From NCBI GenBank assembly GCA_031213475.1, contig JARUPZ010000014.1, positions 8,445,491 through 8,509,490 on the forward strand: DNA of 64,000 nt, written 5' to 3'. Of this stretch, positions 5,566-59,418 are shown piece after piece. Positions within the stretch are counted from its first letter, which is position 1; every line of letters begins with the position of its first letter. A program made the translations under genes and the position numbers. Under the pieces are notes generated by a model. That model saw only the letters and a list, made by a program, of their open reading frames with translations. It did not search any database and had not been told where the DNA came from. This DNA is from Nereocystis luetkeana (Eukaryota > Sar > Phaeophyceae > Laminariales > Laminariaceae).

Positions 5566-7985
5566 GCCTTATGTCTACTGGTACGTGATACCACCACAAA
5601 ACTATACAAGGCATGATACACATCATACGGCGTCTCTTCTTCCTGTTAGTCTTGTTATGTGGTACTGCTCAATACAAAAAGAATGTAACTTGGATTCACA
5701 CGTGTTCGTCCCTGCACATTGCAGCACACGGCATACACTGTTTTGTATTACTAGACTCTGGTTTGGTCCGTGGTGCTCGTTTGCAGATACATGCCAACCC
5801 ACCAGGACAAGCTGCCAGGTTTCACGCCTTGTTTTTGATAGCATCGTGGGGGTCAGTGACGTTTTTTGCTACCCCCTTCTGAGAAAAATATTTATGATAT
5901 CTCGGAGGTTCCCTGAACTCCGAGACACTTGCGGGCCCACATGGCGACGGTCAGAAGCTTGGTTTACTTGCCTGCTAAAAGGGCGGTGTCGAGGATGTTC
6001 ACATGGTTGAAGCGAAATTGCTTCAGGTTATCATGGAGACGCCTCAAACGATGCTTAATGATACGGTATATGGGGCGAAGTATACCATCTTATGACGTAC
6101 GTGCAGACTACCGACTCACAAGCCCATCAAGGTCAACCCTGTCAACTTCACAACAACTAAACTGCGCAACACACGTTTCACTAATCAATAGCTTACACCT
6201 ACCACAGCAAATAAATGCCGGTGTTCAGAAAGGGAGAGTTTACAAACTGTTCGACTCTATGATTCAAGACCACTCCATCCCAACCCGCTCAGACCCAGCT
6301 AACCCTTCGGAAACAACTTAGTCGTAAACACAGTGCGATTTAACCATAGTGCCGAACGAACCATAGTTCGTCAGGAAATGCAATACCGTTCGGTCATCTG
6401 CGACTTCTTTTTTCCCCCGTTCGTGTCGACCCGATTGCGGACAATCCGCAGTGGCTACCAAGTTCCACACAGCCACCAAATCCTTTGGTGTCTCTAGGCA
6501 TTATCTGCGTCATAGCACCAAACTGCTTTGCTTGGCCATGGATGCCGTCGTGCAACAACAGGTAGCCCTCTCATTCCCAGTGAGAGGTAGTATTGATGGT
6601 GGTCAATCGTACCTGACGCCTGTTGCGTATCACTCGAGTACGAGTAGAGAGTGGCGTAACATGTGTATATGTCGACACCTGTTCTAGGCCAGAGATATCT
6701 CGGCGTGTTTGTCTCGAACATATTATACGTACGTATTACGAGTGCTTTCATGTTCTCTCCGCCTAGGGTTCCGATATTTTCGTGTGTTTTTATTGGTGGG
6801 CATCCCCTGATATAAGAACCGCACATATGTTGACGTGTCTTCGTGTATTTGTTAGTCATACAAATAAATGAAAGAAGACGAATAAACACGATGACTGACA
6901 TCTGGATTCCAATATTCGTACGGGTCCAATGCGGGGATGGTAGGGGAACCTCCCCGAGTTTAAAAAGGCTCTGATCGAGCTCAGGTTTCCAGGCTAGGGT
7001 ACCATAGGGGTCGGGATGACGGATCCGTTTGCAGATTTTGCAGTATATCAACGTGCCGGAGTAAATTCGGTCTACGAATGTCAGAAACACCCCGTCTCCC
7101 CCCATCATACACCCCGCGAATTCCGTTGAGCGCCAACGCTTTTAGGGATAGGTACGTTTGGTGTGGGGATCACAAGTTCGTCGCTTACCGCAGTCGAGAT
7201 AAAGCCACACAACAACGGCCTTTCCTTCCGGAGTTTCAAGTTTTATTAAGTATTCCAACGGATTTTCCACTGCGTTTTCTGTTCTGATCAAACGCCGGAA
7301 TGGGGGCACCGCCCCGAACCGGCCAAGCGGAATCGATTTGTTTCTGAGGTTTTCTTCTTTCGGGAAAGTTATGAGTGATCAATGTTGAAGATTATTCTGC
7401 ACATTGTCGGATGGCAAGAGAAGCCATAACTGGAAAGGAGACCGAAAGATGCAGGCTTGCGAATGCGGCCAAAATGAAATCAATTGGCGCAACCCGGCGC
7501 GTAGTTTGTTGAGTTCAACTATCGAACCCTTTCGTTGGAGTTGTGCATCGATTCAAAAGAAGAAGAAAAAATAAACACGCTTGAACTTCTCACGGTGGTA
7601 AGGAAGAGAAAAAGTACCGTAACGGCGGAAACTGCCTTAGAGGGTAAAAACGGGTTGGTAGCCTACTAGTGGCGGTGGAATTGACGCGAGGCGGCAGTTG
7701 GTATGCAGTAGGCCGTGTGCGTTCGACGGAAACAACAACCGAAACCCCGCCACGGTCAAATCACATTACGGAAACCTCAACAGCCCGGCGGGCGGAATCC
7801 CCTCCAGACAAAATTGAGGACAAAAACATACCCACACATAACCCATATATACCCGCTTGTATAGATCCCACGTCCGTCGGAATAGTGCATATGTCACGAC
7901 CAGAACAGACAGGCATTCAGGCGAACAGACGATAGAGTAGTCGAAGTACATACATTAGAAACAGAGCAGTCAAATGCGACGTGCA
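5566..7985. other. No gene recognised
   Basis: Only short frames of unremarkable composition. Longest is 6494-7108 minus (204 codons), which has no recognisable motif and no supporting codon bias. No repeats matched elsewhere in the window. Confidence 0.45.
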
Positions 7986-17544: not shown

Positions 17545-18428
17545 TCACTTGCCCCGCTCGGTACCCTGCCCCAGCTGGATTCCGCTACCCGTGCCCTCCT
17601 TAGCCATCACGCTTGCCACCCAACTGGCGTCCCTCCCATGACTACGTGTGTACGCCTTGTACGTGTCCGGCGCCCACCAACCCTCACGCTGCAAGACCTC
17701 CGGTGTAGCCCCCCCGGACGACCGGTGAGTGGCGCCTCCAATCCTCAGGGAATGCAGGGTGCAATCCTCCGCCCGAACGCCCGTCAACGCAAATACTGCT
17801 AGCAGGGCAGCCGTCGCCTGCTGCTTGGTCCGCATGGCCCATCTGCCGTTACCAATACCGAACGCAATCAGAGGGGCCGGCGAGGGAAGGAACAGGTAAC
17901 AAGACATCAACTCGATCATACCATCGACGGCGCCCCTTCGGCGTCGGCGGGCCTCGGATGACCTTTCCGCGCGCGCGTCAGAACAGCACTCTTTCGCAAC
18001 TGATCCTCCTTCGACCGGCGAAAGTGGACTTCAATACGGTCAGCGGTCGACCACAGTGCTTGCGCCAGGAATCACCGCGAAAGAAAGCTATGTCAACCCC
18101 CCGCGATCAATACGACTGGTGAATTCGCGACCTCGTTCTCGCAACCATTTCCGACGTGTGGGTCAAGAAACTCAACGATGCACACAGCAAGCCACATAAC
18201 CCGTCCCCTAGCACGCCACGATGGGATCAGAGGCTCGCCCGCCAGCAATATCAACCACGAACTGGGCCGACGCACTGTTGCTTGGTTTCCCGCGTCGGCG
18301 TACGACCGAGCGGCGCCTTTGAAGGCGCTAGCGATAACGGGGTGGGTAACGTTGAGCACGAAACCGTGCGAAATACGGTAAACGTATTTGATCGCCGACA
18401 AACGACTCTCGATGGTCGCTGACCGCAA
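17545..18428 (-). pseudogene. Tyrosine recombinase (YR) of the retrotransposon, frameshifted
   Basis: The C-terminal half (17545-17919) carries the catalytic HSLRIGGATH motif (H-x-x-R) and the final WWAPDTYKAYTRS with the nucleophile tyrosine. A separate frame at 18093-18428 holds the helical N-terminal DNA-binding part (RLSAIKYVYRISHG...VIASAFKGAAR). Between them the frame is broken. The enzyme would integrate circular element DNA by strand exchange rather than by an integrase. Not expected to be functional. Confidence 0.75.
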
Positions 18429-18537
18429 TTGTTTGGTGGCAACGCGTACGCTATGTACTCAAACAAGCACCACACTTTGCACATATCATCCCGACCGTGC
18501 TGGAGAAAACCCGGCACTCCCCCACATACCCGGAAGT

Positions 18538-19537
18538 CTAACCTGGCGCCAAACTTCCCCAGATAAGTATGTTCAGACGAGACCGCAACTGCGTTCCGTA
18601 TGAGCTCGAGGCCAACAACGAAGTACAGAGAGACGTCCCGGCCTCTCCCAAGTCCTGAGTCTGCCTCGGAACATCCGGGCGAACGGATTGCAGGTTACGG
18701 AGAGCAAGGTCGCGATTCCAGTGTGAGATGCCATCAGCAGCGACGTTACATACTCCCCGCACGCGTATCGCGTCAAAATTCCAATCCGAAGACAATTCCA
18801 ACGCCCCGCCGAGGCGTATCAAAGCCCCAGATTGGGGGTCCTTACCCCAACGACACCGCTGCACCCACTCCACGGCGGCTTCACTGTCCCCACGCAACAT
18901 AGCGCAGTCACCCGTCGCTGACGGGCGCTCCGCCCGCGGAGACACCAAGACCCCCGCCGAGGCCACCATTCCCAACAGTTTAAGGACGTTGATGGAAATA
19001 TCGTTCTCGCCAGCGACGCCTTACTCGAGCCGGAGAAACGAGACTGCGGGGTCGAGCTCATATCGCTAGTATACTTCAGTTTCGAGGAAGAAACCCCCGA
19101 TAGCCGTTTTGAAAGAATCCGAAAACAGAGTACATTAGGCCGGGCGCTCGAGAAAGTGGTACATCCGAGCCGACAAGCTACCCCCCGGACGTCGAGGCCA
19201 TCAGCAACGAACCATCGCCAAACCTCGAGGTCCCCGTTGACTCGGCCCTTAGAACGACCCGCCGCCCAGGGTTGGGGGTACGGCACGCGAAGTCAGCGCC
19301 GGCGGTGATGCGCGGCATCCCCACCGAGGCCAACATGCGCTGCACGAAGAACGACCCCGGACGAACGGCGAACGATACGAGCATGAGAAACCCGACGAGC
19401 TCCGACACCTGCTTCGCGGAAGCGGAGGCCCGAGACGCCGGCCACACCGCGAGAATTTCACGCAGCTTGCCTCGCTTATGTGGCAGAATCGCCACCGTAA
19501 GGGCCTCAGTATTAATGATCCAACCCAACACCTCCAA
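18538..19537 (-). pseudogene. RT connection and RNase H region, frameshifted
   Basis: 19178-19537 begins with EVLGWIINTEALTVAILP, the conserved segment after the RT palm in YR elements, followed by a connection region. 18690-18975 carries the end of an RNase H fold (GDSEAAVEWVQR then VRGVCNVAADGISHWNRD, the C-terminal N-AD-S/H block). The frames differ, so at least one frameshift separates them. Confidence 0.65.
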
Positions 19538-19550
19538 TCGAGTATCCCAC

Positions 19551-20310
19551 TTAGTGCTTTACGGGCAGACAAGAGGGGAGGATCAGATGTCGCACGTTCG
19601 CCCAGCAGGCGAAAGTGGTCTGACGCGAGCGACTGCACCGCTCGCTGGCAACGGAGGCCATCCGGCCACCATTGCAGCTCAACGAGGATGCCGCCGTCGA
19701 CGCAATACCGTGCCAAACAACAGCTACCAGTATTACCCCCCGTGACAGGCACGGACTGGCAATCCCCCGGGAGCGGCACGACCGGCCCCCCGCTGTAGGG
19801 CGACTACGACGTGCGCGACGGCTACATCCACTTGGTGGGACACGACGGCATTCGGAAACGTGGAACGAGTGCGAGAACATTCGAGCGCCGACGCAACCAA
19901 ACCCCAAACCCCGGGGCTTTTACGCCACCCGAATTGCAAACTCAAGCCCACAACCACGTGGCCGCCGGCCACATACCCAAAGGCGGGCGCCCCGACAGAG
20001 TCCACCGGAACCTGCCGAAACGCGTATTTGACGTCAACCCGACACAAGACTATTCGAGCATTCCTACCGTGTGCCTGACTCAAGAATCAAATCCGCATCA
20101 GCACATCGCGAAGCACGCTGGCCTGTCCGCCCGCGCGCGCAAAGGTGAGATCAAGAACGATACAAAAATTGGGTTTCAGAACGGCAGCCAAGGGTGAAAG
20201 TCGTAGCCCACGGATCTCAACCGCGGAACCCAAATCAAACCCCAGGGCACGCCCACAGGCCACGTCCGCACAAACCTTCTCGATAAAAACACCCTTTGCC
20301 GTAGTCAAAC
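19551..20310 (-). pseudogene. Reverse transcriptase of the YR retrotransposon, broken
   Basis: 20087-20308 holds the finger region before motif A (RLSPLAAVLKPN..IVLDLTFA). 19733-20083 carries motif A as CRVDVKYAFRQVPVD and motif B-like LQFGWRKSPGVWGLVASALE. In another frame near 19690 the active-site box reads CVDGGILVELQWW where the family has Y/V-D-D: the second catalytic aspartate is glycine here. Several frameshifts plus this change indicate a dead enzyme. Upstream to about 20700 may be a gag relic, without clear motifs. Confidence 0.7.
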
Positions 20311-31035: not shown

Positions 31036-33528
31036 GGAACCGCGAGGCTATGGGGCATGGGCTGCTATCGCTGATGGCAGCACGGGAAGGTATAGGCCAT
31101 GTACTTTTCCATCAAGCCCCACCGCGCGAGAATCCTCCCCTTCCCACGCGCCCGGCAAGCGAGCTTTCGACGCCGAACTCGTATGCTGAAGCGTGTGTGG
31201 ACGAGTATTCGACGATCTGGAGGCAGGCGATGGACAAGGAATATCATGGACTGGCGGACGCGGGGACGTTTGGAGCGATGTAGCAACCAGAGGGGCTCAA
31301 CGTCATCTCGGCGAAGTGGGTGTTCGCCTGGAAGTCCAACGAGCATGGTGATGTGGTGCGGGCGAAAGCAAGGCTGGTGGCACGAGGTTTCAAGCAGCGT
31401 GAGGGTATTGATTTCTTTGAGACTTTTGCTCCGACCCCTGCAGCGTCTTGTTTCCGTTTGCTGGGTGCCGTTGCGTGCGAGTTGGGTCTGGATTTGTGTC
31501 ATTTTGATGCTGAGCAAGCGTTCGTGCAGTCGAGTTTGGATGAGGATGTTTTCATGCGACTGCCCCCTGGCTGCGGCGAAATGTCCGGTAAGGTAGTCAG
31601 GTTGAATCGCAGTCTCTATGGCTTGAAGCAAGCGTCGAGGTCGTGGCACAACCACCTTCTCACTCACATGAAGAGTCTAGGCTTTGAGCAGAGCCCCGCT
31701 GACGCGTGTGTCATGAGGTTGGTCGAGTCGGGCTCTGTCTCCATAGTAACAGTGGTTCATGTGGATGATATTTTTGCTGTAGGGCGCAAGGCTAGGTGCG
31801 ATCAGTTCTGTGAAGACCTGAACAGCCTTGTTCCGATCAACAATCTGGGCGAGTTGCGGTGGTATGCTGGTTGTTGTTTTTCGAGGGATTGGGATGCTGG
31901 TACCTTGACGATTTCGCAGCAGGCGTTCGCTGAAAGGACCGCGGCGAGGTTTGGTGTTAGTTCCGGGAGGAATAATCCGCTTTCGGCTGGTGTGAAGCTC
32001 GAAGAGTTCGACGAGAATGAACCCGTGGGTGATTGGCCTTTCCGCGAGTTGGTGGGGTGCTTGATGTGGCTTGCGAACCAAACACGACCGGATATTGCGA
32101 ACGCGGTGAGGGCGGTAGCGAGGTACACGAATAGGCCGAGGGAAGTACACTGGGAGACAGCGGTCGGTATTTTAGAGTATGTTTTTTCTACGAGTGATTT
32201 CGGCATTACGTTTCAGAAGGGTAGCGGGCTTGAACTGGTAGCGTTTGCGGATGCGGACTACGCCAACAAAGCCACTGACAGGAGGTCAGTTTCAGGTGGG
32301 GCTATCATGTGTGCTGGGGCGTGTGTGTGCTGGTTTTCTAGGACGCAGAAATGCGTTACGCTCTCGACCACTGAGGCCGAATATGTAGCACTAGCAGACA
32401 CTATCAAGGAGGCGATGTTCTTGCGCTACGTTTGGAGTTTCATTTTTCCGGGGTTCGGGGAGCGATGCATTACGGTTTTCGAGGATAACGAGGGGGCAAG
32501 GCACCTGGCACAAAACCCAGTGTGCACGTCGAATTCTAAGCACATCGATGTTCGACACCACTTTTTGCGAGAGCTTATTTCCAAGGGGGAGTTTGTTATT
32601 ACCCATGTAGAGTCGGAGGAGCAGCGCGCAGACTTCTTAACAAAGCCGCTCAACAACATGGTTTTTCGTTACCACCGGGATTTTCTGATGAACCTTTGAC
32701 GCCTTGTTTCCGAGATGTTTTATTTTACTTATTTCGAGTGAAGAATGTGTTTGAACTATAAAATCGTTTTGTTTCTGGTAACGGATTTTAAAAGTTTTTT
32801 TTTGGTGTTTTCCGGGTGGTCACAACGTCAAATAAATTTCTAGTGGGGAAACCTATGTGCTATCTCGCATTACCGTCGCGATCTGTGTATCTATGGCGGG
32901 AGTAGGGGATAAGGGGAGACTCTTGTCCGGAGGAACGGGGTTCCTCGCGATCTCTGGCATTAAGTTTCTTGACTTGATTTTATTTTGATTGGCATGACCA
33001 CTCCTGTGGTATTTTTCTGATGATACTTGTGATTTAGGTTTTTGACAAGGCTGAAGTGAGACTAGGAAGCGCCTGGGGGCGTGTGCGGTCCACATGAAAA
33101 TGTTTTCCGACGAGGGAAGGTCTGGATAGTATTCGGAAATTGAGAGAGGTCGGTAGGACTGAAGAGACACTGATATATTTGAATCAATTCCGCGGAAAAT
33201 GCCGTTTTACCTGGCTGAATCCGAGAAGAATGCCGTTTTACCTGGCATTGGATTTCGGTATTTTTATATGTTTGCAATGGAACAGAGAGGCTTTGGATTT
33301 GATCGTTGAACAATGATTTGAGGATTTGAGTGTTGATTCGAGGATTTGATTTTTGAGTTGCAGATTGGATTTTTGAGTTTCTGAGTTTGGTATGAGGTGA
33401 ATTGGATATTGCGATATATCAACCCTGCTATTTCGTGCCTTGTCGTGCACCGGAACAGGGGGGACATTGGTAGGGTCGTGTACAGTTTTACCGACCTGGG
33501 GGGATATTGGAGTATGGTCGTGTATAGT

Positions 33529-38424: not shown

Positions 38425-39540
38425 AACCGGCCCACCCACCCACCCACCGTCACCCTCCCACCCACCCACCCACTGCCTTCATATCAATCCCCTCTCCTTT
38501 CCCTTCGCCAAGCTGTCCTCCACGCACATTCAAGACAACGATCAATCACGTCGTTCCCTCTGGACTGCCTACTGCAGTCGGTGATGGCCAGACGCGCTCC
38601 GTCCCGGCATTGTAGGGGTGCGAGGCTCTGTGGTCATAGGATCACGGACATGAGATGGGCGCCCTCTCGTTCCCTCGCCCAGTGTCTGCTGTTGTTCGTT
38701 TGTCGGAGTCAAGCATGTACAAAAAAACGACGACACGGCTGTGCAGTACTTGTCGCGCGTCTGGAAAAAGGAGCGTGCAGCTCTGAGAGCATGACCCGGC
38801 TGCCTGCACGGATGTCGCGGAGATCCTTTACACGGATCTTGCAGTCCGGACACATCCCGTGTATATGTACCCAGGCAGCAGCCCGTGCTGATTCGTGCGA
38901 CCGACGATATTGTGGTCGCCAATTTGCTTGGGTATAGTGTGTCCCTCTGAAGCCCCGGTTGGAAAATTGTCAATAGGACGTCATTATTCAATAAGATGCC
39001 AACCAACCGCAAGTCCGTGTCATCGGCCCCTGTCTTACCCTCTCTCCCTCCCTCCCTCCCTCCCTCCCTCCCTTCCTCCGTTCCTCCCTCCCTCCCTCCC
39101 TCCCTTCCTCCGTTCCTCCCTCCCTTGCCGGCATACGCGTTTTTGCTATTAATAGGACGCTCACCAACATCTCGTCCTATCAAAATCCCCGACAACCACA
39201 CTGAAAAAAGCGTTAAAACATTTTTAGATATTCCAACAGTACGTATCATACCGTATACCCTGGTATAGCAGCATGATGTTATTCTACTTCGCAGTAGCAT
39301 TAATAATATACCTGGTAGTAAGTACCAGGTAAGTACTAGTCGCTGAAAAAAACGCACGAGTCCGAAACAAAAGCGGAGATACTTACATGGATGGGAATGG
39401 GGTATACAACCTCCTCCCCTCGTGAAAAAAGCCAAGCGCGCCTCGCGCAAACGCCCCCGCCCCTCCCTGCCTCCCTCCCTCCCTCGCTCCCTATTTCCCC
39501 CCACCCCTCCCTCACCCAATCCCTCCGTCCCCACATGTGC
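38425..39540 (+). repeat. CCCA and CCCT microsatellites
   Basis: (CCCA)n at 38429-38471, (CCCT)n at 39039-39122, and another CCCT-rich run at 39458-39525. The minus frame 38569-39534 is mostly the translation of these repeats and is not regarded as a gene. Confidence 0.85.
38566..38650 (+). repeat. SINE-like family S fragment (opposite orientation)
   Basis: GCGCTCCGTCCCGGCATTGTAGGGGTGCGAGG and TCTGTGGTCATAGGA match the reverse complement of 53460-53520. Truncated at both ends; no G-run adjoins it. Confidence 0.65.
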
Positions 39541-42105: not shown

Positions 42106-42466
42106 GAAAAAGCGGGCGGGCGGGAGTGGCGGGGGGGGGGCGTACTCATTTGTTGTTTGCCTTAGTTATTTGACCATTGACCACTCATCCCTTTCGAGAT
42201 GGAGCACCGTTCTTGCTCCTAAAAGAGACAACTCCAGCAAATTGGGTACTCAGTACGTTGTTTCCATATTTTACATAGAAACTGTTTGCTAATCTTATCC
42301 CCTTCCTGTTTGGCCGCCTGTGGCCACCATCTATCTCCTAGGATAGCGATCGTTTTCTCGCTGCTATCTAGTGTGCCAAACTCCTCCATGTCACATCCGT
42401 CTATTTCCCTCATCTCCTTTTCTAACACATCCCGTTCCTCCTTGTATATTTCACATTCCCCTACTA

Positions 42467-42570
42467 TTACGGGGGACCATAGTTAGTAGGACCTATGGTA
42501 TACATAAAAATATATATATTCAACCATTTGCACAACAATATTTGGTCTTATTGACCATGGTCCCCCGTAA
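42467..42570. mobile_element. MITE copy 1 in LINE A
   Basis: 104 bp, ends TTACGGGGGACCATAGTTA.TAGGACC and its inverted complement, flanked by TA. LINE B at the same place reads CTACTCTGTGAGTTCTAC without an insert. The T-strand interior is shared by all five copies. Confidence 0.9.
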
Positions 42571-43312
42571 TATGTGAGTTCTACTCTATTGGTTTGTTTG
42601 CCACACGGGCACATCTGTGCCTCTATTTCCTCCTCCTCCCGGTTGCTGGTATACCTCTTTCTTCTTTCAGGCAGGTCCAGGTCACCTACGCGAAACGCAG
42701 TTTCAGCGTTTGCGCGAAGTCCATTGAGCCGTGCAGATACGTTTTCATGCATATTCCTTCCCTCGATCCCCCGTATATCTCTAGGTGTTTTTCCGATTCC
42801 ACCTTGCTTCGTAGCGCTAGCCTTTCCCTTCCTTATGTCCTTTCTACCACTTCGGCCTTGTACTTTCCAAACTTCTCGGCGGACATCAGCTCTTCTAGGT
42901 TTCCCCCTATATCCTTCCATACTTTCTCAACTACGCTATCACACCTTGCTGAGGCTCGCCCTTTCGTGATTTTCTCCGATACAGCTCTATCAACTATGGC
43001 TGGCAATCTCTTTGTTGGCATGTTCCTTACTTTATGTTGCCCTTTCAACTCTGTCATATATCTATTTGTCTTGAGTGAGTGCATTCCCAGTTCTGCTCTT
43101 AATACTCATTACTAGTCGTTCTTGGGCATCTTTAGGATTTTTTAGGTGCTGCCATCTGTACTGTTTCCAACTGTTTCACGACTTTCGCGTTCCCTTCCCA
43201 TACTTCTCCTGCATATTCTAGTTTTGGGACTATCACATCCATCAGGATACATCTCTTAATCCTGGTGCCAAGGTATCGAGTATCTTAAGATCGCATCCAT
43301 CTTGCCTATGTG

Positions 43313-44091
43313 TCATTTACCCTTCCCTATTATTTTTGCTACGTGTGTATCCCACGAGCAGAGTATTGATATATCTACGCTAAGGTACGTACACTGGTCT
43401 ACGATCGGGAATTCATATCCTCCCCACTTCCAACTGAAATTTATCGGGTTCACCTTATCTTCGTTACAAACAACTACTGCGCATTTCTTGACGTTCGCCG
43501 TCACCCTCCATTTCCTAGTGTATTATAGCACCTTCTCTATTTGTTTCTGCAATCTTCGTTACAAAAACAACTACTGCGCATTTCTTGACGCTCGCCGTCA
43601 CCCTCCATTTCGGGTGTTTCTAATCTCCCCACGAAGCCATCCGCAAACACAATCCCGAAACTGTATTAACCCTACGATGGCTCCCTGTCTTGCTGCTTCG
43701 ACTGCTACTATCAGGTCGTTAATATATATTTTGCGTAGGTTGGGTGACAACGTACATCCCTGTGCAACTCCTTGTAAAATATCAACACGCTTCGATATAT
43801 CCCTGTCCAGCATCACAGCACTTCTCGCACATACCGTCATATTTTTCATCCTTCTCTACATATTTCCTCTGATAATTATTTCCCATCATTTTTCAACAAT
43901 CCATTTCTCCATACTGTGTCGTACGCCTTCTGTACATCTGGAAAGAAACAGCACGTTGTTATTCTCCTACCTTGTATTGTCGTACCTAAGGTGTACACAT
44001 AGTCTACGCAGCTACAGTTTGGCCTAAACCCTGCCTGCCCTTCGCTTATTATGTCTTCCTTCTCCATCATCGTTCCCATTCTATCGTTCAA
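43313..44091 (-). pseudogene. LINE A reverse transcriptase fragments
   Basis: GQAGFRPNCSCVDYVYTLG and PDVQKAYDTVWRNGL (motif A, with the residue before D changed from L to P) at 43876-44091. AQGCTLSPNLRKIYINDLIVA is at 43598-43849, and the catalytic FADD box is lost in a frameshifted stretch. More decayed than copy B. Confidence 0.75.
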
Positions 44092-44186
44092 AATATTACA
44101 AAATGTTTTCCCTGCTGTGCATATTAGCGCTATCCCTCTATAGTTCCCCCGGTCAGCCTTACATCCTTTCTTGAATAAGTGTACTA

Positions 44187-44291
44187 TTACGGGGGTCCAT
44201 AGTTAACAGGACCAAATATTGTTAGTAAAAATGGTTAAACATATAGGTTTTTATGTGTACCATAGGTCCTGTTAACTATGGTCCCCCGTAA
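44187..44291. mobile_element. MITE copy 2 in LINE A (inverted)
   Basis: 105 bp, opposite orientation to copy 1, flanked by TA on both sides. LINE B has TTCTTGAAGAAGTTTACTACTACTCC uninterrupted at this point. Confidence 0.9.
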
Positions 44292-46210
44292 TAGTAATAC
44301 TACTCCTTCTCTTCACCCCCTAGGTGCGTACTCGTTTTCCCATATCCAGTTATACAACATAACCAGCATGGTAAGCATTCCTTCTCCCTCGTACTTCATA
44401 AATTACATCACCATTCGGTCTGCCCCTGCTGCTATTCTATTCTTAAGTTTAGCTACAAACTATTTACTTCTTCCCTTGTGGACTCTCTGTGCAACCATTC
44501 CGGACCACTGTCTTCCCGTTCTGATGCATCTACAATCGCCTCTGCCCACGCGTTGGTTTCCTTCTCGAATTCTGCGTCGAACGTTTCGTTCGCCGTGGAT
44601 GTTCCAAGCTTACGGCAAAGTTCTACGTGTACTTCTCTTTTTCCCCTCGAACAACTAACCATGCTACCGTTCTGTGCTCTTGAAGTAGCTATTCCCGTGT
44701 CTGACTCTCCTGCTTGCTTGCCCAGTATCCCTTTATTATCTCTACCCACATCTGCTTCATCTCGCTCTCAAAGTCTTCATTCGTTGTATTTACTATTATA
44801 AGTATTTCCCTATCCCTTTCTTCTTCTCTACCATTTATTTTACTTTCTTTCTAGCTACAGCATATTCCTCTCATCCTGTCGTAGTTATACTCGATGTATA
44901 CCATGCGCGAGCCTTTCTCCTTACTGTTATAGCCTCTTTCACTGGCGCGTCCCATCATTTTACTGCTCCGTTGCATACTATCAACTCCTTCCCTATTACT
45001 TTACTTGCTGTGGTCTCGAGCAACTGCTCCCATCCCCCTATTATCCTAGCTCCTGCATCGTTCTTCTCTCTATCGTTCCTTGTTGTACCTATTATCTCCA
45101 TTAGCTCGGAATATTGCTCTACATTTTGGGCCTATTTTTCTTGGAACTCTTCCCGTTTCTCTTTTACTTCTAGTTTATATATTCCCCGTCAGTGTATTTT
45201 CCTACCTCGTACTTGTTTGATAACTCTTGTCTGTCGTCTGTCTGTCCATATTAGACAGTGATCCGTCGTTCATCCCTCCGCTGCGCATACATGTAGATCT
45301 CTTTCCTTACCACTTCCATTTTCTACTACTACAAAGTCCAGGATAGAGCTTTCTTCCTTTTGTACGCACTGCCTAGACCATTCCGGTTCTGCCTTTTTTA
45401 CTCTGTCGTTCAACGTCTTCATCTCGTTGTGTTCGAGGAAACTTCGACATCTCTTCGCCATTCTTATGTTTTGTTATTTCCCCATATTTTTCAATGTTCT
45501 CTCATTTAGTTTGCGTGCCTTCCCAATTCTTGAATTAAAATCTCACACACAGTACTACTTCTCCTCGCCTCTTACACTTATGTACATCTACTGCCAATTC
45601 TACGAACTTCCTCTGTATACATTTTATCGTATTCTTCGACTCTGGGGGCATCGAGATGTTTCTTTAAGTAATAGTTTGCTCCTCGCTCCCCTGATATTTT
45701 AATCCATATGCTTCCGTCGAAATTAGTGTCTTTGATCACCTCTGTTATGTCACACAAGTACCTGGTATTGTTTTACTAGAAACCCCACGCCCCTCGCCCC
45801 CCCCATTCTTGCTAATATGCCCCTTCCTCTTCTTCCCTTCCCATGCGCACTCTCCAAATTTGCATCCTATCTCCCCCCTCTCTTCTCCCACGACTCTTGA
45901 ATTCCCACCATGTCTAGGCCGCGCTTACTTACTCGTTCGACAATTTCCACTACTTTTGCGCTCACCCGTGGCGAACCCACATACACTCCATGCTCCTATT
46001 CTCAGCCTCTTTTTCGTTTCGCTATCCGCTCTAGTCTTACCTGTTGTTCCTTCTCCGTTGTCGCTACGAGTATTTCTATCCTCTCATATTTGACCGTTAT
46101 TTCCGCTTCCATTCCTGTTCATGTTTGCTTGTTCTGCGCCCCTATTCTTTTCCCCCCATCCCTTTGAGCCACTTGTCGCTCCCTGTCTCCCCTTACCTTC
46201 GTTCACCCTA

Positions 46211-46315
46211 TTACGGGGGACCATAGTTAATAGGACCTATGGTATACATAAAAACCTATATATTTAACCATTTTTACCAACAATATTTGGTCCCATTAAC
46301 TACGGTCCCCCGTAA
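46211..46315. mobile_element. MITE copy 3 in LINE A
   Basis: 105 bp, TA on both sides (46209-46210 and 46316-46317). LINE B reads GTTCACCCTAGAACTACG at this point, showing the intact TA target. Confidence 0.95.
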
Positions 46316-46602
46316 TAGGACTACGTCTCAGTTTCGCTGTTCCATTCGCTGTACATACTCTCCATCCCAGTCTTCTAACCCATGCCCAAACTTTTTCTGT
46401 ATCTATCCTCTGCCACTCCGCGCTCGCTTTTCGGCTCGAGCATGACTCGAAAGTGTTCTCCCTCTCGTTCTACGTTTCCTGTTTTAAAGCAGTGCAGTCC
46501 TGCTTCGTTGCACTTCCACTCGAACTCAATCCTCGTCATGTCGCTAGGACTCCAAATATCAGCACTATTAGTACTTTACCCTTCTAACCCTTCTTTCTCC
46601 AC

Positions 46603-48042: not shown

Positions 48043-48073
48043 TTTCGGTATGGGGGGGGGGGGGGGGGCGTAC

Positions 48074-48619
48074 TCATTTGTTGCTTGCCTTAATTTGACC
48101 ATTGACCACGCATCCCTTTCGAGACGGAGCACCGTTCCTACTCCTAATAGAGAAACCTCCAACAATTGGGCGCTCATTACGTTGTTTCCATATATTACAT
48201 AGAAACTGTTTGCTAATATTATCCCCTTCCTGTTTGGCCGCCTGTGGCCACCATCTATCTCCTAGGATAGCGATCGTTTTCTCGCTGCTATCTAGTGTGT
48301 CAAACTCCTCCATGTCATATTCGTATATTTCCCTCATCTCCTCTTCTAACACATCCCGTTCCTCCTTGTATATTTCACATTCTCCTACTCTGTGAGTTCT
48401 ACTCTCTATCGCTTTAACACACGGGCATATCTGTGCATCTATTTCCTCCTCCCCCCGGCTACTGGTATACCTCTTCCTTCTTTCTGGCAAGTCCAGGTCA
48501 CCTAAACGAAAACGCAGCTTCAGCGTTTTCGCGAAGTCCATTGGGCCGTGCACATACGTTTTCATTCCTGTTACTTCCCTCAATCTCCCGGATATCTCTA
48601 GGTGTTTTTCCGATTCCAC
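48074..48619 (-). pseudogene. LINE B C-terminal region with zinc-knuckle-like motif
   Basis: Continues after the RT thumb in another frame. Contains CPCVKAIESRTHRVGECEIY, a C-x-C...H...C arrangement common at the C-terminus of Jockey/R1-like LINE proteins, presumably binding template RNA or DNA. Conserved RWWPQAAKQEGD follows. Confidence 0.7.
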
Positions 48620-48848
48620 CTTGTTTCGTAGCGCTAGCCTTTCCCTTCTTTCTATCCTTTCTTCTACTTCTGCCTTGTACTACCCAAACTTCCCGGCGAA
48701 CATCACCTCTTCTTGGTTTCCCCCTATATCATTCCACACTATTCTCAACTACGCTATCCCACCTTATTCCAGCTCGCCCTTTTGTTGCTTTCTCCCATAC
48801 AGCTCTATCAACTATGGCCGGCAACCTCTTTTTTGGCATGTTCCTTAC

Positions 48849-50072
48849 TTAATATTGCCATTTCAACTTTCTCATAACCCTGTTTGTCTTGAGTGGGTGC
48901 ATTCCCAGTTCTGCTCTTAATACTGTATTACTAGTCGTACTTGAGCATCTTAGGATTGTTTTAGCTGCTGTCATCTGTACTGTTTCCAACTGTTTTACGA
49001 GTTTCGCATTCCCTTCCCATACTTCTCCTGCATATTCTAGCTTTGGTACTATCACATTCATCAGGATACATCTCTTAATCCTGGTGTCAAGGTGTGAGTC
49101 TGTTAGGATCGCATCCATCTTGCCTATGTGTGCTTTACCCTTTCCTATTACTTTTGCTATAGGTGTATCCCAAGAGCAGCCTTTTGAGATCTCCACGCCA
49201 AGGTACGTATACTGGTCTACGATCGGCAATCCCTCTTCTCACTTCCAACTGAAATTTATCGGGTTCACTTTATCTTCGTTACAAACAACTACTGCGCATT
49301 TCTTGACGTTCGCCGCCACCCTCCATTTCCTAGTGTATTCTAGCGCGTTCTCTATTTGTTTCTGCAATCCTTCAGGTGTTTCTGATATCCCCACGAAGTC
49401 CTCAGCAAACATCAATCCCGACACTGTATCTTCCCCTACCGTGACTCCCTGCCTTGCTGCTTCAACCGCTACTATCAGATCGTTAGTATATATCTTGAAT
49501 AGGTTGGGTGACAGCGTACATCCCTGTGCAACTCTTTGTAAAATATCAAAATACTTCGATATTTCCCCGTCCAGCCTCACAGCACTTCTCGAACATTCCG
49601 TCATATTTTTCATCATTCTCCACATCTTTCCTCTGATTCCTATTTCCCATAGTTGTTTTCACAATCCATTTCTCCATACTGTGTCGTAGGCCTTCTGTAC
49701 ATCTAGAAAGTAACAGTACGTTGGTAGTCCCGCGTCTTTCCTACCTTGGATTATCTTACCTAGAGTGTACACATGGTCTATGCAGCTACGGTTTGGCCTA
49801 AACCCTGCTTGCCCTCCGCTTATTTTGTCTTCATTCTCCATCATCGTTCCCATTCTAACGTTCAAGATCTTACAAAATGTTTGGCCTACTGTGCTTAGTA
49901 GCGTTATCCCCCTATAGTTCCCCGGGTCAGCCTTATCTCCTTTCTTGAAGAAGTTTACTACTACTCCTTCTCTCCATCTCCTGGGTGCGTACTCGTTTTT
50001 CCATATCCAGTTATACAACATAACCAGCATGGTAAGCATTCCTTCTCCCCCGTACTTCATAAATTCATTCAC
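48849..50072 (-). pseudogene. LINE B reverse transcriptase, one frame with a few stops
   Basis: Three segments share one frame. 49659-50072 has RRWREGVVVNFFKKGD, NYRGITLLSTVGQTF, GQAGFRPNRSCIDHV and motif A CYFLDVQKAYDTVW. 49239-49625 has QGCTLSPNLFKIYTNDL and the catalytic box as LMFAEDFVG, where the family has F/Y-A-D-D: the first Asp is Glu. 48849-49229 is the thumb (YTYLGVEISKGCSWDT, RCILMNVIVPKLEYAGEVW). In-frame stops separate them. Confidence 0.85.
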
Positions 50073-50501
50073 TATTTGGTCTGCCCCTGCTGCTTTTCTA
50101 TTCTTAAGTTTAGCTACACATTTTTTTACCTCTTCCCTAGTGAACTCTCTCTGTAACCCTTCCGAACCACTGTCTTCCCTTTCTCATGCATCTACAATCG
50201 CCTCTGCCCACGCGTTGATTTCCTTCTCGAATTCTGCGTCGAACGTTTCGTTGGCTGTGGGTGTTCCTAGCTCACGGTAATACTCGACAAGTCCTTCCCT
50301 TTTCCCTTCGAACTACTAACCATTTTACCGTTCTGTGCTCTTAAGGTAGCTATTCCCGTGTCAGCCTCCTGCTTGTTTGCCCAGTATCCCTTTTATTCCT
50401 ACCCACATCTGCTTCATCCCGCCCTCAAAAGTCTTCAATCGTTGTATTTACTATTATAAGTATTCCCCTATCCCTTTCTTCTTCTCTACCATCTCTTTTT
50501 C

Positions 50502-51955
50502 TTACTTTCTAGCTATATCATATTCCTCCCATCCTGTCCTAGTTTTGCTCGATGTATACCTTGCGTGTGCCTTTCTCCTTACTGTTATAGCCTCTTGCAC
50601 TTCTTCATCCCACCATTTTACTGCTCTGTTGCATACTATCAACTTTTTCCCTATTACTTTACTTGCTGTGGTCTTGACCAACTTCTCCCATCCTTCTATT
50701 ATCCTAGCTCCTGCATCATCCCTCTCTATATCGCTATTTGTTGTACCTATTACTTCCAATAGCTCGGAAAATTGCTCTGCATTTTTGGCCATCTCTTCTT
50801 GGAACTCTTCCCGTTTCTCTTCTACTTCTAGTTTATCTATTCTCCATCTGTGTAATTTCCTACCTCGTCTTTGTTTGATAACTCTTGTCTGCCAACTGTC
50901 TGTCCGTATTAGACAGTGATCCGTAGTTCTTACGTCCGCTGCGCATACATGTAGTTCTGTTTCCTTCCCCCTTCCGTTTTCTACTACTACAAAGTCAAGG
51001 ACAGAGCTTACTCCTTTTGGTATGCACTGTCTTGTCCAGTCCGGTTCTGCCTTTTTTACTCTGTCATTCAACGTCTTCATCTCGTTGTGTTTGAGGAACT
51101 TCAACATCTCTTCCCCATTCTTATTTTTTGTTACTTCACCATACTGTCCAATGCTCTCATTCAGTTTGCTTGCCTTCCCAATTTTTTAATTACAATCTCC
51201 CACTAGTACTACTTCTCCTTGCCTCTTATACTTCAGTACATCTACTGCTACTTCTCCGAACTTCCTCTGTGTATCTTTTATCGTATTCTTCGACTCTGGG
51301 GGCGTATAGATATTTCCTAAGAAGTGATATTTCGCTCCCCGCTCCCCTGGTATCTTAATCCTTATGATTTCGTCGAATTTAATGTCTTTGATCTCCTCTA
51401 TTATGTCACAGGTATTCTTTGACTAGGAACCGCACGCCCCCCGCCCTCCTATTCTTGCTATTCTGTCCCTTCCTCTTCTTCCCTATCCAGGCGTACTCTA
51501 ACTTTGCATCCTATCTCCCCCCCCTCTTTCTCCCATGACTCTTGAATTCCCACCATGTCTAGGTCGCGCTTACTTACTTGTTCGACAATTTCGATCCTTT
51601 TTCGTTCTTCCGTGGCGAACCCACATACGTTCCATGATCCTATTCTCAGCCTCTTTTTCGTTTCACTATCCGCTCTAGTCTTACCAGTTCCTTCTCCGTT
51701 GTCGCTACGAGTATTTCTGTCCTCTCTTCTTTGACCGTTCTTTCCATTTCCGTTTCTGTTTTTGTCTTCTTGTTCTACGCCCCTATGTTTCTTCCCCATT
51801 CTCTTTGGACCACTTGCTGTTTCCTGCCTCCCCTTACCTTCGTTCACCCTAGAACTACGTTTTAGTTTCGCTATTTCATTAGCTATACATACTCTCCATC
51901 CCAGTCTTCTAACCCATGCCGACACTTTTTCTGTCTCTATCCTCTGCCACTCCAT
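50502..51955 (-). pseudogene. LINE B apurinic-type endonuclease and N-terminal region
   Basis: 51458-51955 ends with RLRIGSWNVCGFATEERKR and DLDMVGIQESW, the start of an APE-like (exonuclease-endonuclease-phosphatase) nuclease, preceded by a charged N-terminal part. 50502-51107 continues in another frame with the nuclease end (DFVVVENG...TTDHCLIRTD, matching the SDH box) and a basic helical linker. This nuclease would nick target DNA for target-primed reverse transcription. Confidence 0.8.
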
Positions 51956-52157
51956 GCTCGCTTTCGGCTTTAGCGTGACTCGAAAGTTGTCTCCCTCTCG
52001 TTCTACGTTTTATATTGCAAAGCAATACAATCCTGCTTCTTCGCACTTCCTCTTGAACTCAATCCTCGTCATGTCGCTAGGAACTCCAAATATCAGCACT
52101 ATTAGCACTTTACCCTGCCAGTCTTTCTTGCTCCACTTTCGGTATGGGGGGGGGGGG

Positions 52158-58784: not shown

Positions 58785-58891
58785 TTACGGGGGACCATAG
58801 TTAATAGGGCCTGTAGTATACATAAAAACCTACATATTTAACCATTTCTACTACATCAATATTTGGTCCTATTAACTATGGTCCCCCGTCA
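58785..58891. mobile_element. MITE copy 4
   Basis: 107 bp with the same ends as copies 1-3 and TA on both sides; a few substitutions (GGGCCTGTAG, CCCGTCATA) make it the most diverged copy. Confidence 0.9.
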
Positions 58892-59313: not shown

Positions 59314-59418
59314 TTACGGGGGACCATAGTTAATAGGACCTATGGTGTACATAAAAACCTATATATTTAACCATTTCTACTAACAATATTTGGTCCTATT
59401 AACTATGGCCCCCCGTAA
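59314..59418. mobile_element. MITE copy 5
   Basis: 105 bp, TA on both sides, nearly identical to copy 3. Only 422 bp from copy 4. Confidence 0.95.

Follow-up and report, generated by a model that had tools for sequence, protein, structure and literature searches.

A stretch of 64,000 nucleotides from the brown alga Nereocystis luetkeana (positions 8445491-8509490 of contig JARUPZ010000014.1, hereafter the window; the assembly comprises 465 Mb in 1987 contigs) holds two related LINEs, one of which contains three short inverted-repeat elements that the other lacks. This raises the question of which of the two states is the older, and what kind of enzyme moved the short elements. Very probably they are MITEs, non-autonomous transposons of the IS630/Tc1/mariner kind that are moved in trans and duplicate a TA, and the three entered LINE A after its own insertion.

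The two LINEs (Table 1) show 483 differences over 4060 aligned positions, corresponding to ~88% identity, and their alignment confirmed the original prediction of three MITEs in LINE A and none in LINE B. Pfam places the reverse transcriptase domain (PF00078) in two LINE B frames, and the LINE B endonuclease matches fall below the cut-off. Other retroelements are also seen in the window. A 471-aa open frame at 31284-32699 (+) holds a Copia-type reverse transcriptase (RVT_2, PF07727), and frames at 17545-19803 (-) resemble by eye a tyrosine-recombinase retrotransposon of the DIRS type, for which Pfam gave no match.

The third site demonstrates the TA duplication directly, as had been claimed. 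LINE A reads CACCC-TA-[MITE]-TA-GGACTACG and LINE B reads CACCC-TA-GAACTACG, a single TA in LINE B against a TA on both sides of the MITE in LINE A. At site 1, where LINE A has CCTAC-TA-[MITE]-TA-TGTGAG and LINE B has CCTAC-TC-TGTGAG, a TA duplication fits only with one base substitution (TC in LINE B against TA in LINE A). At site 2, LINE A reads GTAC-TA-[MITE]-TA-GTAATA-CTACTCC and LINE B reads TTAC-TA-CTACTCC. The intervening GTAATA is a copy of the last four bases of the MITE plus TA, and may stem from tandem duplication or slippage, or an earlier excision may have left it behind; once these six bases are set aside, the TA duplication at site 2 is exact. Sites 1 and 2 had been described as compatible, which holds given the substitution at the one and the six-base repeat at the other, the latter having been omitted from that description. 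Since open LINE B frames cross all three sites and LINE A is disrupted, it is LINE A that gained the MITEs. The predicted nested order, with LINE A inserted first and the three MITEs later, is thereby supported; the term 'dated' applies to this relative order and not to an absolute date. The unequal divergence of m1, m2 and m3 from the consensus suggests that they may also differ in age among themselves, although 105 bases are no proof of this.

Table 1. Features of the two LINEs and of the MITE copies in the window (positions are those of the window).
Feature	Positions	Strand	Description
LINE A	42128..46602	-	Decayed non-LTR retrotransposon, host of m1-m3; delimited by blastn against LINE B; stops and frame changes relative to the open LINE B frames
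LINE B	48056..52136	-	Paralogue with three empty sites; split into several frames
MITE copy m1	42467..42570	+	In LINE A; 104 bp; TA on both flanks; 9.6% from consensus
MITE copy m2	44187..44291	-	In LINE A, inverted; 105 bp; TA on both flanks; 5.7% from consensus
Right TA of m2, then GTAATA	44292..44299		GTAATA (44294-44299) absent from LINE B
Scar-like motif TACCTGGTA	45759..45767		In LINE A; the alignment gap in LINE B is nine bases, as opposed to a clean gain of 7 bp
MITE copy m3	46211..46315	+	In LINE A; 105 bp; TA on both flanks; 1.9% from consensus
MITE copy m4	58785..58891	+	Outside the LINEs; 107 bp; TA on both flanks; 7.6% from consensus
MITE copy m5	59314..59418	+	Outside the LINEs; 105 bp; TA on both flanks; 3.8% from consensus

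All five copies in the window lie between two TAs, including the further two that had been predicted, which are outside the LINEs. The predicted length of 104-105 bp is correct for the three in LINE A, and the full set spans 104-107 bp with the middle LINE A copy inverted. The terminal inverted repeats are 27 bp long and start with TTACGGGGGACC; the right end of m4 reads CGTCA. RNA folding of the five MITE strands gave strong hairpins, as is expected of any inverted repeat, and no function is drawn from them. The genome contains 12,292 exact copies of the 27-bp end (6219 and 6073 per strand), and because the reversed pattern occurs 0 times, chance can be excluded. With a length of ~105 bp, inverted repeats and this number of exact ends, the family has the properties of a MITE.

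TA targeting holds across the genome. A TA directly precedes 11,231 of the 12,292 exact ends (91%; reversed pattern 0) and is missing from ~9%, so the outcome that would have spoken against the original prediction, a majority of genomic copies lacking TA, is not what is seen. A C stands before the TA at 7,134 of the 11,231 TA-preceded ends (64%), against a local C-before-TA background of 19.8%. Among 34 fully read copies (the five in the window and 29 of 30 excised loci, the thirtieth being m3 itself), TA is found on both sides in 29 and is absent from at least one side in five. CTAG targets account for 11 of the 29 TA-flanked copies, against a local background of 2.9% (binomial p 3e-10). MITE insertion thus prefers C-TA-G. 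Of 1345 candidates, 40 were scored and the best 30 make up these loci, a selection that biases the divergence values in favour of young copies; the mean of 3.7% is in turn inflated by a misoriented locus (L005) with an artefactual 24.5%. The copies cluster, with 22 further matches (fragments included) in ~87 kb around 29 loci, and in some arrays the copies are spaced by TA alone (L026, L021). On contig C1, 60 of the first 100 CTA-flanked ends listed fall, by eye, within 15.19-18.53 Mb. The 70 aligned MITE hits, one of which is the end of an autonomous element (L059:4180) and two of which have doubtful borders (L019), include 47 of 105 bp, four of 112 bp and four of 118-120 bp.

The whole-genome Pfam search for DDE_3 gave 0 matches at E 0.001, presumably due to a long catalytic spacer that splits the domain. 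A candidate autonomous family was reached through weak DDE_1 matches alone (46 in the genome up to E 1, 20 of them excised with 1.5 kb on either side), as two frames of a 4.27-kb element whose copies at the loci L059 and L060 are 99.5% identical. At L059 it is 4267 bp long with TA on both sides, and its ends, TTACGGAGGCTCATAATTAGTAGGTCC and TTACGGGGGCTCATAATTAGTAGGACC, agree with that of the MITE in 21 and 23 of the 27 bases. The L060 ends agree with the MITE in 22 and 21 of the 27 bases; one of these ends lies next to a direct TA and the other next to AATA. A 513-aa frame of L059 matches DDE_3 with 47.2 bits (cut-off 28.6), and its HTH_33 and DDE_1 matches are below cut-off. The putative catalytic residues, assigned by motifs and the Pfam match, are D130, D263 and E387, the last two being separated by 123 residues; in a 599-aa relative (L064; 33% identity over 423 aligned positions) the corresponding spacer, likewise taken from motifs and pairwise alignment, is 113. 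A full-length transposon with the same ends and a DD34D/E-type transposase had been proposed as a check on the original prediction. What was found is a DDE_3 element with related ends, having neither identical ends nor that catalytic spacing, and no element combining exact MITE ends with a transposase was found in this genome. The distant relatives L062, L064 and L065 showed no clear MITE-type ends, no relatives of the transposase were confirmed in viral contigs, and a comparison with solved structures gave no match.

Several other candidates were set aside. One frame, P0002, was not supported as a first exon of the transposase, and L061, considered as a candidate, holds just another MITE of the same kind. 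Among the DDE_1 loci, L049 and L052 carry a different element with TA-CAG ends, L047 has another end type, and L040 and L054 merely have a separate MITE copy nearby.

We infer cut-and-paste movement with a transposase supplied in trans, the enzyme coming from the L059 family or a close sister. Such a transposase would bind the MITE ends, cut the MITE out and insert it at a TA, preferably within C-TA-G, so that the TA is duplicated; three MITEs would have entered LINE A in this way after LINE A's own insertion. A tentative refinement is that the L059 transposase itself, and not a lost or unseen sister, moves the diverged MITE. Its ten best copies are 98-100% identical over at least 421 residues (with one in-frame stop in four of the ten), and the left end of L059, after its 21 of 27 bases in common with the MITE, continues with CAAATCTTG against CAAATATTG. 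Against this, the L059 ends differ from the MITE by 4-6 of 27 bases, and the exact L059 end type has 19 occurrences at 12 places only. As 11 of these 12 places also carry the transposase, this end type is that of the autonomous family, without a MITE swarm of its own.

Movement by another superfamily is very improbable. In PIF/Harbinger elements, for example, 3-bp TTA/TAA duplications could be misread as TA followed by a TTA end, and the MITE ends do read TTA/TAA beside the TA. Harbinger is also among the most family-rich groups of DNA transposons in Ectocarpus, according to the available text of PMC12477816. However, on that reading the left flank would be TTA and the right flank TAA, inverted copies instead of direct ones. 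The related-ended element encodes DDE_3, and the reading is refuted at site 3, where LINE B has a single TA and lacks TTA. Least credible of all is the loss of the MITEs from LINE B by precise excision, with LINE A as the older state: excision does occur in cut-and-paste elements, and the TA of LINE B at site 3 is clean, but three losses that each restored an open frame are much less probable than three gains, and classical excision of the Tc1/mariner kind leaves extra bases.

Insertion into LINE A by a TA-duplicating transposase can be compared with several known systems. Stowaway MITEs of plants are also short, duplicate TA, reach thousands of copies and are mobilised in trans by mariner-like enzymes; their ends differ from those described here, making this a likeness of kind with no sequence relation claimed. 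The bacterial insertion sequence IS630, as Tenzen and Ohtsubo are said to have reported in 1991 (cited in PMC2170065), inserts at TA and prefers CTAG. This is the preferred target of the MITE too. TcMar MITEs have already been reported in brown algae, and the 105-bp family is a further such family. In Ectocarpus, the 217-bp Mariner-Tc1 MITE TcMar-N1_Ec32 depends on the 4.4-kb autonomous TcMar-2_Ec32 and is 27 times more numerous than it (PMC12477816, in the text available). The pair of 105 bp and 4.27 kb found here is likened to it by description, both being a brown-algal MITE with an autonomous element. As described in the same text, TcMar-2_Ec32 has an N-terminal EsV-1-7 domain, whereas the two L059 frames scanned (P0001 and P0002) gave no EsV-1-7 match in Pfam. 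EsV-1-7 domains are otherwise abundant in this genome, with at least 150 matches listed (150 of 1713 candidates scored). There were 0 matches in 14 control genomes, a weak control as the named ones are prokaryotes. According to the available text (PMC12477816), such domains expanded in number in brown algae and are known elsewhere mostly from giant viruses, so that their abundance by itself makes a brown-algal genome very likely.

The catalytic spacing sets the family apart from classical members of the group. In classical Tc1/mariner transposases, 34-41 residues lie between the second D and the E (PMC8533490, as available), a spacing that neither of the two related transposases has. The Tc1/mariner-type mobilisation that had been proposed thus holds in the wide sense of IS630/Tc1/mariner, with TA duplication and 27-bp terminal inverted repeats, and not in the sense of classical DD34D/E; the DDE_3 transposase sits on an element whose ends are related to those of the MITE and not identical. 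Sailor, a DD82E family of the IS630-Tc1-mariner group (range DD78-111E), includes full-length elements of 1757-4441 bp with TIRs of 24-57 bp in stramenopiles, mainly duplicates TATA and has ends that are usually GT or CC (PMC8533490, in the part available). The L059 family resembles Sailor in its long spacer between the second D and the E. It is not filed under Sailor because its spacers (123 and 113), its TA duplication and its ends (TTACGG, starting with TT) differ from those in the available description. For a MITE family of very high copy number, the result is a clean empty-site demonstration of TA targeting, together with counts across the whole genome; the CTAG preference of the family parallels that of a bacterial element, and the catalytic spacing of its autonomous relative lies beyond the Sailor range.

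Outside this genome, searches of phages for the MITE gave six partial matches covering at most 37% of the query, and viral contigs gave one match to the MITE end, by eye due to chance, and none to its longer form. Six matches came from bacterial and archaeal contigs, of which L032, L034 and L036 look like chance and L033, L035 and L037 are real members. The latter three were deposited as bacterial MAGs; their MITEs have 78-89% identity to the consensus, and the contigs probably represent algal contamination.

Many TA sites, in part within these MITEs, also show a 7-bp gain that reads TA-CCWGG-TA. TACCWGGTA occurs nine times in the window against 0.35 expected, e.g. at 39309-39331 and at the LINE A position given in Table 1. 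Thirty insertions of three or more bases were counted among the 70 aligned MITE hits. By eye, nine of the events, one of them in L037 and the other eight in this genome, add CCWGG and a TA where the consensus has a TA; four further events of this type are decayed or less clear. In 257 kb of the own genome, a sample enriched in MITE loci, TACCWGGTA was found 100 times, TACGWCGTA 0 times and TAGCWGCTA once; TAGGWCCTA, found 38 times, is part of the MITE itself. Bacterial and viral loci (28 kb) have no occurrence of TACCWGGTA and the three MAG contigs (20 kb) have three; in this genome its density is 8.0 per 10 kb around MITE loci against 1.4 in the window. Of 273 TACCWGG words, 200 run on into TA, as do 4 of 49 TACCSGG words (both strands, palindromic places counted twice). 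Genome-wide, 15,917 places carry the tandem double TACCWGGTACCWGGTA and 2 carry the reversed pattern; in viral contigs the double was seen at one place in each of nine contigs, read as chance.

The leading reading, though a tentative one, is that these scars number tens of thousands (extrapolated from the nine in the window) and are excision footprints of an abundant TA-targeting transposon that is now missing or rare. Five-base CCWGG overhangs would anneal save for a central A:A or T:T mismatch, which would then be repaired to A or T. The main rival is a 7-base repeat spreading by slippage. By eye, both units share the central base in 40 of the 59 doubles listed, where independence predicts about half, and some tandem duplication is therefore favoured. 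No intact or larger CCWGG-ended element was seen in the 257 kb, leaving excision without a source element, but slippage does not explain the single gains at TA inside MITEs. A limited search found no paper on TACCAGGTA or on genome-wide footprints of this type, which is no proof of their absence in print. If the footprint reading is true, the MITEs are dated targets that record the activity of the transposon, and with a scar motif present genome-wide its source could be sought directly.

Sleeping Beauty leaves three-base CAG footprints, to which the CCWGG scar would be a longer analogue. In 223 kb of own-genome loci, the commonest word of three bases between two TAs is TA-CAG-TA, with 97 occurrences. 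These might be footprints of the CAG-ended elements of ~2.2 kb in L049 and L052, and CAG repeats could contribute to the count.
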